Shown here piece by piece: positions 2,251 through 7,532 of a stretch of DNA of 60,175 nt. The notes beneath the pieces are model-generated. The model was given only the letters and a program-made list of their open reading frames with translations. It had not been told where the DNA came from and made no database searches. Numbering within the stretch: position 1 is the stretch's first letter; every line of letters begins with the position of its first letter. The translations under genes and the position numbers were made by a program. The stretch lies in assembly GCA_947464135.1 (NCBI GenBank), contig CANHVK010000006.1, positions 1 to 60,175 on the forward strand. Reading direction: 5' to 3'. The stretch is from Flavobacteriia bacterium. Lineage in GTDB: Bacteria; Bacteroidota; Bacteroidia; Flavobacteriales_D; Crocinitomicaceae.

Positions 2251-3255
2251 ATGAAAATTTCAGCATCAATTTATAGTGATAAAAAAAGACCTTTAAAAGA
2301 AGTAATTACTGATTTAGTTAGCCATCAGGTTGATTTACTACATGTAGACTGCAATGATGATGAAACTGTTTTTGATGATATTGCTTTAATTAGAGAATGG
2401 TGTTCTTTACCAATTGATTTACATATAATTACTGATAAACCTTCAAAGTATTATTCTTTATTAGAAAAGTATCCTGTAGAATATATCACATTCCAATATG
2501 AAGATTTAAAACAACCAATAAAATTTCCAGATTCTATAACAGGAAAGAAAGGATTAGCAGTTATTACTCCAACTGATGTTTCTGTTTTTGATGAATATAA
2601 TACGTTCGATTTCATTTTGATTATGGCAACAGTTCCAGGTCAAAGTGGAGGGAAGTTCGATCCAATTAACTTTAAGAAAATTAGAGATTTTCAACGTAAA
2701 TATCCAACAAAATCAATTCATGTAGATGGTGGAGTAAATGGCGAAGTTTCGTTTATTTTAAGAACGATGGGTGTGAGTAGTTCTGTATCAGGTTCATATT
2801 TATTCAATGAACCTAGCATTGGACAAGCTCTGATGAACTTAACAAAACGCAATCTTGAATCCCATTTTTTAATAAGGGATTTTATGATTCCAATAGCTGA
2901 AAGTCCAGTGATTAAGGAATGTGAAATTACTTTGAAATCAGTGTTAGAAACTATTGAAGATGGTAAACTAGGATTTTGTTTAGTAACTGATGAACACAAT
3001 AAATACAAAGGATTGATTTCTAATGCAGACGTAAGAAAAACATTGATTAGAGAGTTTGAATCTTTACCTAAAATAAATGTTTCTGGATTATTGAATTCTG
3101 ATGCAGTTGGTTTAAATCAGCAAGAAACTGTAAACGATATGTTGCAATTAATTAAATCAAAATCATTTCCAATTACCTATTTACCGATTTGGGATGATGA
3201 AAAAAATGCTGTTGGAATTGTTACTTTTGTGAATCTTATACGTGGAGAATTATGA
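2251..3255 (+). CDS. Ribulose-phosphate 3-epimerase-like barrel fused to CBS domains
   Basis: Residues 1 to about 200 form an RPE-family TIM barrel. The four metal ligands of the epimerase family are all recognisable: H31 and D33 in HVDCND, H58 in DLHI, and D159 in HVDGGVN. The glycine-rich phosphate loop is present but altered (VPGQSGGKF, about 128-136). Residues 205-334 form a CBS (Bateman) pair, with GFCLVTD plus GLISNADVR in the first repeat and GIVTFVNLI at the end; such pairs usually sense adenine nucleotides. The gene overlaps the DAHP synthase start by four bases (ATGA), so the two are translationally coupled. Known for the family: RPE interconverts ribulose-5-P and xylulose-5-P. Inferred: a nucleotide-regulated pentose or ulose phosphate epimerase that feeds the next enzyme. 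The substrate is not settled. Confidence 0.72.
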   Translation: MKISASIYSDKKRPLKEVITDLVSHQVDLLHVDCNDDETVFDDIALIREWCSLPIDLHIITDKPSKYYSLLEKYPVEYITFQYEDLKQPIKFPDSITGKKGLAVITPTDVSVFDEYNTFDFILIMATVPGQSGGKFDPINFKKIRDFQRKYPTKSIHVDGGVNGEVSFILRTMGVSSSVSGSYLFNEPSIGQALMNLTKRNLESHFLIRDFMIPIAESPVIKECEITLKSVLETIEDGKLGFCLVTDEHNKYKGLISNADVRKTLIREFESLPKINVSGLLNSDAVGLNQQETVNDMLQLIKSKSFPITYLPIWDDEKNAVGIVTFVNLIRGEL

Positions 3256-4250
3256 TAATAGAATTAAAATCAACAATAACAGCTGAGAATGCTGAAAATT
3301 TAGCAATTGAATCTAAAGCATTTCATATAAAATATAACGATAAAAGATATTTAATTGCAGGTTCTGGAGTAAAAGAAGTTCCTGCTAATTTGATAGATTT
3401 TGCTCATAATCATTGGGTGTTTTCGAATGATTTACAATTAGCATCAAGTAAATTTTTACCAACTAAAAGAGAAGTGAAAATTGGTAATGTAACGATTGGT
3501 GGAGATACAAAGAATACTGTTATTATTGGTGGACCTTGTTCTGTTGAAAGTGAAGAACAAATAGTTACTTCTGCTAAGTTTATCAAAAGTTTAGGGTTAA
3601 ACTTATTGCGTGGTGGATGTTACAAGCCAAGAACAAGTCCATACAGTTTCCAAGGATTGGGATTAGATGGCTTGAAATTATTGGCTAAAATGCGTGATGA
3701 TTATGGTTTAACGGTAATTACAGAAGCACGTGATGCTACACATATTCAAGAAATAATAGAATATTCAGATGTAATACAGGTTGGTGCAAAAGCAATGTAT
3801 GACCAAGGAATTTTAAGAGCATGTGCTAAAACTCAAAAGCCTGTGTTAATTAAGCGTGGTTTTGGTACAACATTGCAAGAATTTGTTCAAGCAGCAGAAT
3901 TTGTATTAGCTGGTGGAAATCCAAATGTTATCCTTTGTGAACGAGGTATTCGTACATTTGAGACTGGTACTCGTTTTACACTCGATTTGTGTGGAGTATC
4001 TTGGTTAAAAGAACATACAAATTTACCCATTATTTTAGACCCAAGTCATGCGATGGGATATGCTTACGGTGTTGCTGATTTAGCAAGAGCTTGTGTCGCT
4101 ATGGGAATTGATGGTTTACTAATAGAAGCTCATCCAGATCCAAGTGTAGCAAAATCAGATGCATCACAACAATTGAATCACGACCAATTTGAAACATTGA
4201 TTTCAAGTTTAAAACCTGTTGCTTCAAGTGTAGGTTACAACATTATATAA
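3252..4250 (+). CDS. aroF: 3-Deoxy-7-phosphoheptulonate (DAHP) synthase, type I-beta
   Basis: This 332-residue enzyme of the DAHP/KDO8P synthase superfamily condenses phosphoenolpyruvate with erythrose-4-phosphate, the first shikimate-pathway step. An N-terminal segment of about 75 residues precedes the barrel, as in the Thermotoga-type enzymes. GGPCSVESEEQ, LRGGCYKPRTSPYSFQG, LCERGIRTFE and DPSHAMG are diagnostic. KPRTSPYSFQG argues for DAHP synthase and against KDO8P synthase. No chorismate mutase domain is fused. It overlaps the RPE-CBS gene by four bases, and the KdsC-like phosphatase begins one base after its stop. A variant acceptor aldose is possible given those neighbours, but DAHP synthase is the default reading. 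Confidence 0.88.
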   Translation: MIIELKSTITAENAENLAIESKAFHIKYNDKRYLIAGSGVKEVPANLIDFAHNHWVFSNDLQLASSKFLPTKREVKIGNVTIGGDTKNTVIIGGPCSVESEEQIVTSAKFIKSLGLNLLRGGCYKPRTSPYSFQGLGLDGLKLLAKMRDDYGLTVITEARDATHIQEIIEYSDVIQVGAKAMYDQGILRACAKTQKPVLIKRGFGTTLQEFVQAAEFVLAGGNPNVILCERGIRTFETGTRFTLDLCGVSWLKEHTNLPIILDPSHAMGYAYGVADLARACVAMGIDGLLIEAHPDPSVAKSDASQQLNHDQFETLISSLKPVASSVGYNII

Positions 4251-4251
4251 T

Positions 4252-4941
4252 ATGGTATTTTTAGAACAAAACATAAGAGGACTTTGTACAAAATTCGGTT
4301 TAGATTACGAATTGTTTTTAACAGATTTTCAAGTTGATAGTATAACTGAAATTCCACTAGTTGAATTAGAAGCTATTTGTGAAGAATACGAATTAGATTT
4401 GGAAGCTTTGTTGTTTAAACCATTATATAAATCGGAATATCATATTGAAAAATTAACTCCAATAAAACTTTTGATTTTGGATGTGGATGGAGTTATGACA
4501 GATGGTGGAATGTATTTTACTGAAAATGACGATCAGCTCAAGAAGTTTAATACAAAAGACGGAATGGGGATTCTAGAATTAACTAAAAATAAAATAGTTG
4601 AAGTTGGAATAATTTCATCAGCTTTTAAAGGAAATGCAGTACGTAATCGTGCTGAAATGTTAGGGATTAAACGTTGTTATGTCGGAAGAGATCCAAAAAT
4701 GGACGTACTTCAATCTTGGTTAGATGAGTTAGGTATATCTATGGAAGAAGTTGCTATTATTGGTGATGATGTAAATGATTTACCAATAATGATGAAAGCA
4801 GGTTTTTCTGCATGTCCATCAGACGCAGTACAAGTTGTAAAACAACATGTTAATTTAATTCTTTCTACTAAAGGTGGTCAGGGTTGTATTCGTGAATTTA
4901 TTGATAACTATTTATTACCAAATCCTATTGGTACAAAATAA
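4252..4941 (+). CDS. KdsC-like HAD phosphatase with extra N-terminal domain
   Basis: Residues from about 70 to 225 form a C0-type HAD phosphatase of the KDO-8-phosphate phosphatase (KdsC/YrbI) family. DVDGVMTDG holds nucleophile D77 and acid/base D79; ISS is near 121-123, K149 lies in GRDPKMD, and GDDVNDLP at 171-178 holds the Mg-binding Asp residues. KdsC proteins are usually about 170 residues. Here residues 1-65 form an additional, probably helical domain rich in Glu and Leu that I do not recognise with certainty; it recalls the C-terminal half of XRE-type helix-turn-helix domains. The family removes phosphate from 3-deoxy-ulosonate phosphates. Next to a DAHP synthase rather than a KdsA, its substrate is open: KDO-8-P made elsewhere, or the DAHP synthase product. 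Confidence 0.78.
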   Translation: MVFLEQNIRGLCTKFGLDYELFLTDFQVDSITEIPLVELEAICEEYELDLEALLFKPLYKSEYHIEKLTPIKLLILDVDGVMTDGGMYFTENDDQLKKFNTKDGMGILELTKNKIVEVGIISSAFKGNAVRNRAEMLGIKRCYVGRDPKMDVLQSWLDELGISMEEVAIIGDDVNDLPIMMKAGFSACPSDAVQVVKQHVNLILSTKGGQGCIREFIDNYLLPNPIGTK

Positions 4942-4947
4942 TAAATT

Positions 4948-6162
4948 ATGGAAAGATTAAAAATTGGAATTATTAGAGAAGGTAAAGTTCCGCCTGATTT
5001 TAGGGTTCCTTTAGCACCTTCTCAATGTGCATTCATTAAAGAAAATTATCCACATGTAGATTTTATTGTACAACCGAGTCCTATACGTTGTTTTGATGAT
5101 AATCAATATATTGAAAAAGGAATTTTGGTTCAAGAAGATTTGTCTGATTGTGACTTAATTATGGGGGTAAAGGAAGTTCCTGTTGATGCTTTGATTCCGC
5201 ATAAAAAGTTTATGTTCTTTTCACATACAATAAAAAAACAAACTTATAATCGTAGGTTATTACAAGAAATCTTAGAAAAGAAAATTCAATTAATTGATTA
5301 CGAAGTATTAAAAAACAAAGTCGGTAAAAGATTAATTGGATTTGGTAGATATGCTGGAATTGTAGGATGTTATAATGGATTCAGAGCTTTTGGTTTGAAA
5401 AACAATTTATATTCTATAAAAAAAGCATCGGAATGTCATGATAGAGTAGAGTTAGAGAAGGAATTAAAAAAAGTTGTATTACCTGCAAATACAAAAGTAG
5501 TTGTTACAGGTTTCGGAAGAGTTGGTTTTGGAGCTAGGGAAATTCTTCATTTGTTACCCATAATGGAAGTTGCTCCAGAGGAATATGGCAATGAATTCAA
5601 TCAACCAGTATTTACACATTTAGAAGTGGGTGATTATTTTGCTCGTAAAGATGGTCAAGAATTTGATAAAAAAGATTTTTATACAAATCCTGAGCAATAT
5701 AAATCTGTTTTTCCTTCATTTTCAGATCAATCTGATATGTATATTGCTTGTCATTTTTGGTCAAATAAGTCCCCAAATATTCTTGAAAATGATGATTTAG
5801 TTAAAGAAAATGTTCGTTTAAGTGTTGTTGCTGACATTTCTTGTGATATAGCAGGTCCTATTGCTACTACCTTAAGACCAAGTACGATAAAAGATCCGAT
5901 TTATGGATATAATCCAAAATTACAATATGAAGTTGATTTTATGGATAAAGATGCAATAGCAGTAATGGCAGTGGATAATTTACCATGTGAATTACCAAAA
6001 GATGCATCTGAAGATTTTGGAAATGATTTCATTCAATTTGTTTTACCCCACTTTTTTAATGGAGATCCTGATAGAGTAATAGAAAGAGGTAGTGAGACAA
6101 ATCTAGATGGAGAATTAATGCCAGGATTTACATATCTTGAAGATTACGTATCTAAACATTAA
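4948..6162 (+). CDS. Saccharopine/alanine dehydrogenase-like NAD(P) oxidoreductase
   Basis: This 404-residue protein has the AlaDh/PNT N-terminal fold (GIIREGKVPPDFRVPL, then the SPIRCF segment) followed by a Rossmann domain with the glycine motif VVVTGFGRVGFGA at about 185-197. The conserved block near residues 140-160 and the C-terminal VMAVDNLPCELP resemble the Bacteroidota proteins usually called alanine dehydrogenase or lysine-forming saccharopine dehydrogenase. The reaction would be NAD-dependent formation or oxidation of an amino acid or opine-type product; the substrate cannot be read from sequence. It lies six bases after the phosphatase and two before the transporter, so it is in the same operon. 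Similar proteins are widespread in flavobacteria, so the neighbourhood may not define its function. Confidence 0.7.
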   Translation: MERLKIGIIREGKVPPDFRVPLAPSQCAFIKENYPHVDFIVQPSPIRCFDDNQYIEKGILVQEDLSDCDLIMGVKEVPVDALIPHKKFMFFSHTIKKQTYNRRLLQEILEKKIQLIDYEVLKNKVGKRLIGFGRYAGIVGCYNGFRAFGLKNNLYSIKKASECHDRVELEKELKKVVLPANTKVVVTGFGRVGFGAREILHLLPIMEVAPEEYGNEFNQPVFTHLEVGDYFARKDGQEFDKKDFYTNPEQYKSVFPSFSDQSDMYIACHFWSNKSPNILENDDLVKENVRLSVVADISCDIAGPIATTLRPSTIKDPIYGYNPKLQYEVDFMDKDAIAVMAVDNLPCELPKDASEDFGNDFIQFVLPHFFNGDPDRVIERGSETNLDGELMPGFTYLEDYVSKH

Positions 6163-6164
6163 CA

Positions 6165-7532
6165 ATGTCAACGTCTGCGATAAAAAAAGGGGATAAAAAA
6201 ATTATAAAGGGCTGGGTTTTTTATGACTGGGCTAACTCAGTCTATAACCTAGTTATTTCTTCAGCAATTTTCCCCATTTTTTATGATACAGTGACAACAA
6301 ATTATTTTAAAGCTCAGTACTTTAAAAAAGATATTGCAATAGCGAAAGAAATGAAATTACCTGACAATGTAGAGGTAATGGTTGATTTTTTTGGTACTAA
6401 ACTATCAAATTCAGTCTTGATGTCTTTTGTTTTATCAGCATCTTTTCTCGTTGTTTCTATTCTTTCACCATTGTTGTCTGGTATTGCTGATTATACAGGA
6501 AGTAAGAAGAAATTCCTGAAATTCTTCTGTTATTTTGGATCAATTTCATGTATTTCATTGTATTGGTTTAATCCAGCATACATAGAGTTTGGAATGTTTT
6601 CACTGTTTTTAGCAAGCATAGGTTTTTGGAATAGTTTGGTTTTTTACAATTCATTCCTTCCAGAGATTGCTGAACCAGAAGAACACGATAAAATATCGGC
6701 TAAAGGTTTTAGTATGGGGTATATCGGTTCAATGATTCTTTTAATTCTTTGTTTGATTTGGATTCAAGTATTAAAACTACCTGTACACTGGTGTTTTGTT
6801 TTTGTAGGTTTATGGTGGATAGGATTTAGTCAATTAACTTATAGAGTATTACCAAATAATGTTTACGGTAGAAAACCAAAAGCAGGTTTATGGAGAGGAT
6901 TTAGAGAATTAGGATTTGTATTTAAAGAATTCAAGCAAACTCACAGGCTAAAAAGATATTTATTCGCTTTTTTCTTTTTCAACACAGGAGTACAAACAGT
7001 AATGTTAATGGCTACTATTTTTGCAAAAAAAGAAATTAAATGGCCTAATGAAAATGAAAGTTCAGGTCTAATAATTGCAATATTACTAATTCAAATATTG
7101 GGCGCATTTGGTGCGTTTTTGATGTCCAGATTATCCAATATAATAGGAAATATCAAAACGTTAATTTTAACAGTAATTATTTGGTTAGGAATATGCTATG
7201 CAGCGTTTTTTATTACAACTCCTTTTCAATTTTATGTATTAGCTTCTTTTGTAGGCTTAGTTATGGGTGGTATTCAAGCAATAGCTCGCTCAACATATTC
7301 AAAATTTTTACCTGAAACTAGAAGTCACGCTAGTTATTTTTCCTTTTATGATGCAACTGAAAAAATAGGAATTGTTTTAGGAACTTTTTTCTTTGGAATT
7401 GTAGAACATCTAACTCATTCTATGCGCTTTTCTGTTGTTTCTGTTGCTGGTTTCTTTTTCATAGGATTGTTGTTATTATTCTTTGTTCCTAAAAATGAAA
7501 AAGGATTAATCAAAGGTTATGGATTAGATTAA
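6165..7532 (+). CDS. UMF1-family major facilitator transporter
   Basis: This 455-residue membrane protein has about 12 hydrophobic segments. The N-terminal GWVFYDWANSVYNLVISS is the hallmark of the UMF1/Atg22-like branch of the major facilitator superfamily. A longer hydrophilic loop follows TM1 (about residues 45-80), and LASIGFWNSLVFYNSFLPEIA lies in the first half. Eukaryotic Atg22 proteins export amino acids from vacuoles; bacterial members are largely uncharacterised. Starting two bases after the dehydrogenase stop, it is the last tightly packed gene of the run. Exporting or importing an amino-acid-like product is a reasonable guess from context and no more. Confidence 0.8.
   Translation: MSTSAIKKGDKKIIKGWVFYDWANSVYNLVISSAIFPIFYDTVTTNYFKAQYFKKDIAIAKEMKLPDNVEVMVDFFGTKLSNSVLMSFVLSASFLVVSILSPLLSGIADYTGSKKKFLKFFCYFGSISCISLYWFNPAYIEFGMFSLFLASIGFWNSLVFYNSFLPEIAEPEEHDKISAKGFSMGYIGSMILLILCLIWIQVLKLPVHWCFVFVGLWWIGFSQLTYRVLPNNVYGRKPKAGLWRGFRELGFVFKEFKQTHRLKRYLFAFFFFNTGVQTVMLMATIFAKKEIKWPNENESSGLIIAILLIQILGAFGAFLMSRLSNIIGNIKTLILTVIIWLGICYAAFFITTPFQFYVLASFVGLVMGGIQAIARSTYSKFLPETRSHASYFSFYDATEKIGIVLGTFFFGIVEHLTHSMRFSVVSVAGFFFIGLLLLFFVPKNEKGLIKGYGLD

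Follow-up and report, generated by a model that had tools for sequence, protein, structure and literature searches.

Three adjoining genes in a member of the Crocinitomicaceae, a family of aquatic bacteria, quite probably fill the slot of KdsD and KdsA in the pathway to Kdo, the sugar that anchors the outer-membrane lipopolysaccharide (LPS) and that nearly all Gram-negative LPS contains. With less assurance, we lean towards this trio replacing KdsD, KdsA and KdsC with true Kdo as the product. The replacement is deduced from the loss of KdsA and KdsD in genomes that keep KdsB and the Kdo transferase WaaA, from a CBS pair in the first protein whose best structural match is that of a KdsD, and from CBS fusions in sister families. 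KdsA and KdsD are drug targets and are often taken as fixed. The tie between the trio and the missing KdsA and KdsD is absent from an earlier note on this DNA. The genes lie in the window, by which we mean the whole stretch of 60,175 nucleotides that was analysed, as follows:

2251-3255, + strand: RPE-CBS gene, 334 aa, with Ribul_P_3_epim (PF00834, E=3e-21) and two CBS domains
2863-3252, + strand: CBS pair of RPE-CBS (profile search of the PDB: 4o9k, E=5.8e-11)
3252-4250, + strand: DAHPS', a type I-beta DAHP synthase homologue, 332 aa (DAHP_synth_1, E=1.2e-69)
4252-4941, + strand: KdsC', a KdsC-like HAD phosphatase, 229 aa (TIGR01670, 133 bits)
4948-6162, + strand: AlaDH/PNT-like dehydrogenase (PF05222, 2.8e-15), not core
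6165-7532, + strand: ATG22/MFS-type membrane protein (PF11700, 1.7e-70), not core

The first two genes share an ATGA overlap (3252-3255) and a single base (4251) separates the second from the third, a coupling described before and confirmed here by the ORFs and domain searches. The AlaDH-like and ATG22/MFS genes (4948-7532) start 6 and 2 bases after the preceding gene. Among the 80 best loci of the wider search described below, the AlaDH-like gene lies directly 3' of the trio in most, and the ATG22/MFS gene is a usual, non-universal downstream neighbour. Both genes accompany the trio in most close relatives and are missing after it in deep branches, where miaA often stands directly 3' of the trio in place of the pair; we therefore do not regard the two genes as core.

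We examined conservation in a sample of 59 genomes of relatives, 36 of them from the Crocinitomicaceae, the window's family. RPE-CBS was present in 34 of the 36 family members and, outside the family but within the order, in G048 and G054, and the order RPE-CBS, synthase, phosphatase was found in nearly all family members, usually with the four-base overlap. In a wider search, through the genomes of 84,980 named species, the synthase came next after RPE-CBS in 80/80 of the best loci (one split RPE-CBS counted in), and the KdsC-like phosphatase came next in all 77 whose contig continues. The trio is thus a conserved unit, and the order kept in 80/80 loci rules out a KdsC gene beside chance neighbours. 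Carriers among these loci were Crocinitomicaceae (Fluviicola, Brumimicrobium) and Marivirga sericea; of 395 genomes sampled from the phylum, only two, both of the window's family, had RPE-CBS. A few loci depart from the pattern. The synthase-phosphatase pair is located away from RPE-CBS in G023 and G013, and a 190-aa P-loop gene sits between RPE-CBS and the synthase in G032 (L056:1-3389). The split RPE-CBS (L162, ~5001-6002), in two frames of 239 and 90 aa, comes from one metagenome-assembled genome; a sequencing error or decay of the gene would account for it.

Marivirga sericea belongs to the Marivirgaceae, within the Cytophagales. In a tree of the trio, its copy (L224) groups with those of Brumimicrobium (support 100/99), which points to transfer; most likely, this species received a Crocinitomicaceae-type trio.

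KdsA above cut-off was found in none of the 36 trio genomes of the relatives sample and in 19 of the 23 relatives without the trio, so that no genome had both. The exclusion reaches 6e-12 by genome in a Fisher test and, as the fairer figure, p = 7e-4 when collapsed to lineages (4 versus 11). The association is strong, yet it is built on few independent lineages (about 4 versus 11). KdsA was likewise missing from all 20 further trio genomes, among them Marivirga sericea, Fluviicola chungangensis and Brumimicrobium glaciale, and SIS-type KdsD above cut-off was missing from both sets (0/36 and 0/20). KdsB was found in 31 of the 36 and in all 20, and WaaA in 35 of the 36. Of the five genomes without a KdsB match, four belong to the family, and one of these four is 59% complete; the fifth is G054, in which only a KdsB fragment at a contig end was seen. 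The trio carriers from other families, G048 and G054, lack KdsA and SIS-KdsD, and KdsA is present in members of the same families (G037, G055, G044); Marivirga sericea keeps KdsB in the absence of KdsA and KdsD. We ruled out that KdsA had been overlooked through incomplete assemblies, because genomes that are complete or almost so lack it as well: G015 is a single contig, and G010, G021, G024, G025 and G033 are given as 100%.

Four genomes of the sample had neither the trio nor KdsA (G006, G027, G040, G050). Two of the four are incomplete family members, one of which, G027, has the synthase-phosphatase pair, and the G050 contig stops within its transaldolase-CBS gene. KdsA was found in 286 of the 395 genomes sampled from the Bacteroidota; in the other ~109 (G061, G066, G071 and others), hardly any of which carry the trio, no KdsA match was strong. 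In one trio genome, G028, a glycan gene cluster contains a 205-aa SIS protein (L231:4557-5174, - strand), which is a weak match and yet the top SIS-region match to the KdsD family within the window's family (92 bits); it counts against the replacement reading. Literature searches for a Kdo route lacking KdsA and KdsD found none among the papers covered.

RPE-CBS consists of a TIM barrel (about residues 1-200) and a CBS pair (about residues 205-334). Its AlphaFold model (pLDDT 89.7) matched RPE at ranks 1-33 in the PDB; it has no SIS domain and the RPE fold instead. The metal ligands H31, D33, H58 and D159 are invariant in 21 aligned proteins, and the metal and catalytic His and Asp residues align with those of rice RPE and of the RPE encoded in the window's own genome. 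Against the RPE equivalog TIGR01163 the protein scored 73.1 bits, under the 212.6 cut-off, and nearly every genome of the family, the window's included, has a separate canonical RPE.

In many bacteria KdsD is a SIS-CBS-CBS protein. The best CBS match of the pair in a structure search of the PDB was 4o9k, the CBS pair of arabinose-5-P isomerase (KdsD), whose ligand we take to be CMP-Kdo. The sequence profile placed 4o9k third, after two archaeal CBS proteins, and as the best single full-length match, with 3k2v and 3fna also matched. An HMM of the CBS pair, run against CBS proteins of the order other than KdsD, singled out none. The suggestion of the earlier note that the pair could tie the pathway to the energy state finds no support, the nearest CBS structure being KdsD's.

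In two sister families, a transaldolase/fructose-6-P aldolase (FSA) domain fused to a CBS pair stands where KdsD is missing. G037 and G039 have KdsA, no SIS-KdsD and this fusion, which stands alone in G037; in G039 it has KdsA on one side and a KdsC-like gene on the other. Fusion loci were seen at L142:5718-6728 (- strand, 337 aa), L230:5766-6773 (- strand, 336 aa) and L143:3578-3994 (- strand). FsaA converts glycolaldehyde and GAP to arabinose-5-P (PMC9947464). The fusion is a candidate arabinose-5-P synthase. KdsD thus appears to have been replaced by another CBS-bearing TIM barrel at least twice.

The second protein of the trio exceeded the cut-off for type I-beta DAHP synthase (TIGR01361, 324.7 bits; cut-off 267.75) and fell below that for Kdo-8-P synthase (TIGR01362, 128.3 bits; cut-off 314). 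Its AlphaFold model (pLDDT 90.9) had the DAHPS 1rzm as best PDB match. All 113 synthases aligned contain KPRT[ST]PY, the E4P motif of DAHPS (KPRTS), and all 113 have Lys for the GAR arginine (GAK-x-MYD). Two hallmarks of KdsA, the KANRS insertion and the long beta7-alpha7 loop, were absent, the loop being short. By these sequence features the synthase is a distinct subfamily of type I-beta DAHP synthase homologues. The subfamily also occurs in genomes with KdsA: in G055 it directly follows KdsD-KdsA-KdsB (L140:4399-7544, - strand), and G044, which has KdsD and KdsA, contains the synthase-phosphatase pair without RPE-CBS (L132:5079-6747, - strand). The occurrence in these two genomes implies that the product may not be Kdo-8-P; together with the retained KPRTS and the missing KANRS and long loop, it would argue against that product. 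E. coli DAHPS can turn arabinose-5-P into Kdo-8-P, which makes the KPRTS motif compatible with Kdo. With this E4P motif retained, a seven-carbon analogue stands beside true Kdo as the less likely product.

The phosphatase scored 133 bits against TIGR01670, the KdsC subfamily (cut-off 106.95), and 136.3 bits against the KdsC equivalog NF007019, below its cut-off of 208. Its DxD and GDDxxD motifs are invariant. An N-terminal extension of ~65 aa is XRE/HTH-like in relatives, and in the G044 homologue the N-terminus matches HTH_3 with 23.1 bits; an HTH_3-like domain is, as judged from these matches, the likely origin of the extension in the window's protein. Of the separate kds genes that the earlier note proposed to look for, kdsA and kdsD are absent from the trio genomes, and a second, short KdsC is present in the window's genome (G000:C32). 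This second copy and the non-random neighbours speak against reading the third gene as simply KdsC, yet G015, a complete genome, has no KdsC besides the trio copy, which is thus probably its working KdsC. Two substrates had been considered for the phosphatase: the product of the adjoining synthase, to give a free 3-deoxy-ulosonate, which we favour as the probable one, and KDO-8-P made elsewhere, against which the absence of KdsA stands.

From what was computed, that is, the three-gene unit, the absence of KdsA and KdsD alongside KdsB and WaaA, the folds and the catalytic residues, we propose the following working model. The host would have lost KdsD and KdsA and would still activate a Kdo-type sugar by KdsB and transfer it by WaaA. 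RPE chemistry is a proton exchange beside a carbonyl, and we infer that it would convert ribose-5-P to arabinose-5-P or E4P to threose-4-P. Through such alpha-carbonyl epimerisation RPE-CBS may supply an aldose phosphate; the simplest case is arabinose-5-P formed from ribose-5-P by a change at C2, and a less simple one starts from Ru5P. We know of no RPE-fold enzyme that makes arabinose-5-P. The DAHPS homologue would condense arabinose-5-P with PEP to Kdo-8-P, from which the phosphatase would release free Kdo. The CBS pair might sense the end product CMP-Kdo, as the CBS pair of KdsD would.

KdsB bears on the identity of the product. The KdsB of the window's genome aligned from end to end with CMP-Kdo synthetases of known structure (E = 5e-54), and 46 residues are invariant across trio genomes and KdsA-bearing relatives, with FSR and LEQLR kept in all groups. 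We considered and rejected a shift of KdsB specificity along with the trio: positions specific to the family, such as TPN at 227-229, are absent from G048 and Marivirga and hence look like lineage marks. No departure from KdsA-bearing relatives was shared by the KdsB proteins of these two transferred cases. Such conservation leads us to lean towards true Kdo.

An alternative that we judge unlikely leaves the trio in the same slot and has it make a seven-carbon Kdo surrogate, which KdsC' would release and KdsB and WaaA would accept. RPE-CBS would turn E4P into threose-4-P and the synthase would then form 3-deoxy-D-lyxo-heptulosonate-7-P, or else the synthase would form plain DAHP from E4P. E4P is Ru5P minus C1, and 3-deoxy-D-lyxo-heptulosonate-7-P shares its C4-C6 configuration with Kdo. 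The E4P motif in every synthase fits this alternative, E4P suits RPE chemistry, and the same synthase loops occur in the KdsA-bearing G044 and G055, where a second Kdo-8-P synthase would be redundant. It is this trio-subfamily synthase in G055 and G044 that keeps the surrogate in view as a minor possibility. Evidence to the contrary comes from KdsB, whose invariant residues are equal in trio and KdsA-bearing genomes, with no departure common to G048 and Marivirga. To our knowledge, no LPS with a seven-carbon Kdo surrogate has been described, and it is doubtful that the Crocinitomicaceae and a few recipients build their LPS on a seven-carbon 3-deoxy-heptulosonate in place of Kdo.

Rather improbable, in our view, is that the trio forms a second regulated DAHP entry or a specialised pathway outside LPS, the loss of KdsA and KdsD being coincidental and an unseen enzyme supplying the Kdo precursor. 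Among protein families the synthase does match DAHPS best, and G044 has the synthase-phosphatase pair in addition to a Kdo pathway. However, the lineages with a transferred trio also lack KdsA and KdsD, the CBS pair has its nearest structural match in KdsD, the shikimate route needs no phosphatase, and a DAHPS-chorismate mutase is encoded separately in the window's genome. The second DAHP synthase whose presence the earlier note had left to be checked is therefore there, and with the canonical RPE it supports the view that the trio lies outside the normal shikimate route. The original proposal that RPE makes xylulose-5-P and, through transketolase, E4P for the DAHP synthase, with CBS sensing energy and KdsC acting on KDO-8-P from elsewhere, has gene order alone in its favour and is very improbable given the lack of a KdsA to make KDO-8-P, the separate RPE and DAHPS-chorismate mutase, and a CBS pair nearest to KdsD's.

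KdsB and WaaA without KdsA and KdsD across a bacterial family constitute a clear pathway hole, for which the trio is a specific candidate. If replacement with true Kdo as the product holds, this would be the first route to Kdo known to us that runs through an RPE-fold and a DAHPS-type enzyme; if the surrogate were made instead, it would be the first natural seven-carbon Kdo surrogate that we know of. Taken with the transaldolase-CBS fusions of the sister families, the trio points to several reinventions of the supply of arabinose-5-P, each of them tied to a CBS sensor.

Compared with the E. coli-type KdsD-KdsA-KdsC pathway, the trio would cover the same three roles, namely a CBS-fused aldose-phosphate maker, a PEP aldol synthase from the DAHPS/KDO8PS superfamily and a KdsC-type phosphatase, and KdsB and WaaA are retained in both. 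It differs in having an RPE-fold protein for the SIS isomerase and a KPRTS-bearing DAHPS-type enzyme for KdsA, and in forming one overlapping operon. RPE-CBS shares the TIM barrel, the His/Asp metal ligands and the phosphate loops with ribulose-phosphate 3-epimerase, whereas it has a DCNDD-type loop in place of MDGxFVPN and an added CBS pair. The transaldolase/FSA-CBS fusion resembles it as a TIM-barrel sugar-phosphate enzyme with a CBS pair in the vacant place of SIS-KdsD, but belongs to another enzyme family and has canonical KdsA retained beside it. With the type I-beta DAHP synthases of Thermotoga maritima (1rzm) and Pyrococcus (1zco) the trio synthase has the fold, metal ligands, KPRTS and N-terminal domain in common, while GAK replaces GAR and a GYAYG-like loop replaces GRR/GIR; it is not in a trp operon and is 34-38% identical to the trp-operon DAHPS of relatives. 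Finally, the phosphatase has the core catalytic motifs of KdsC and KDN-9-P phosphatase (HAD-IIIA) and differs from them by its added 65-aa N-terminal extension, which is HTH_3-like in deep relatives.
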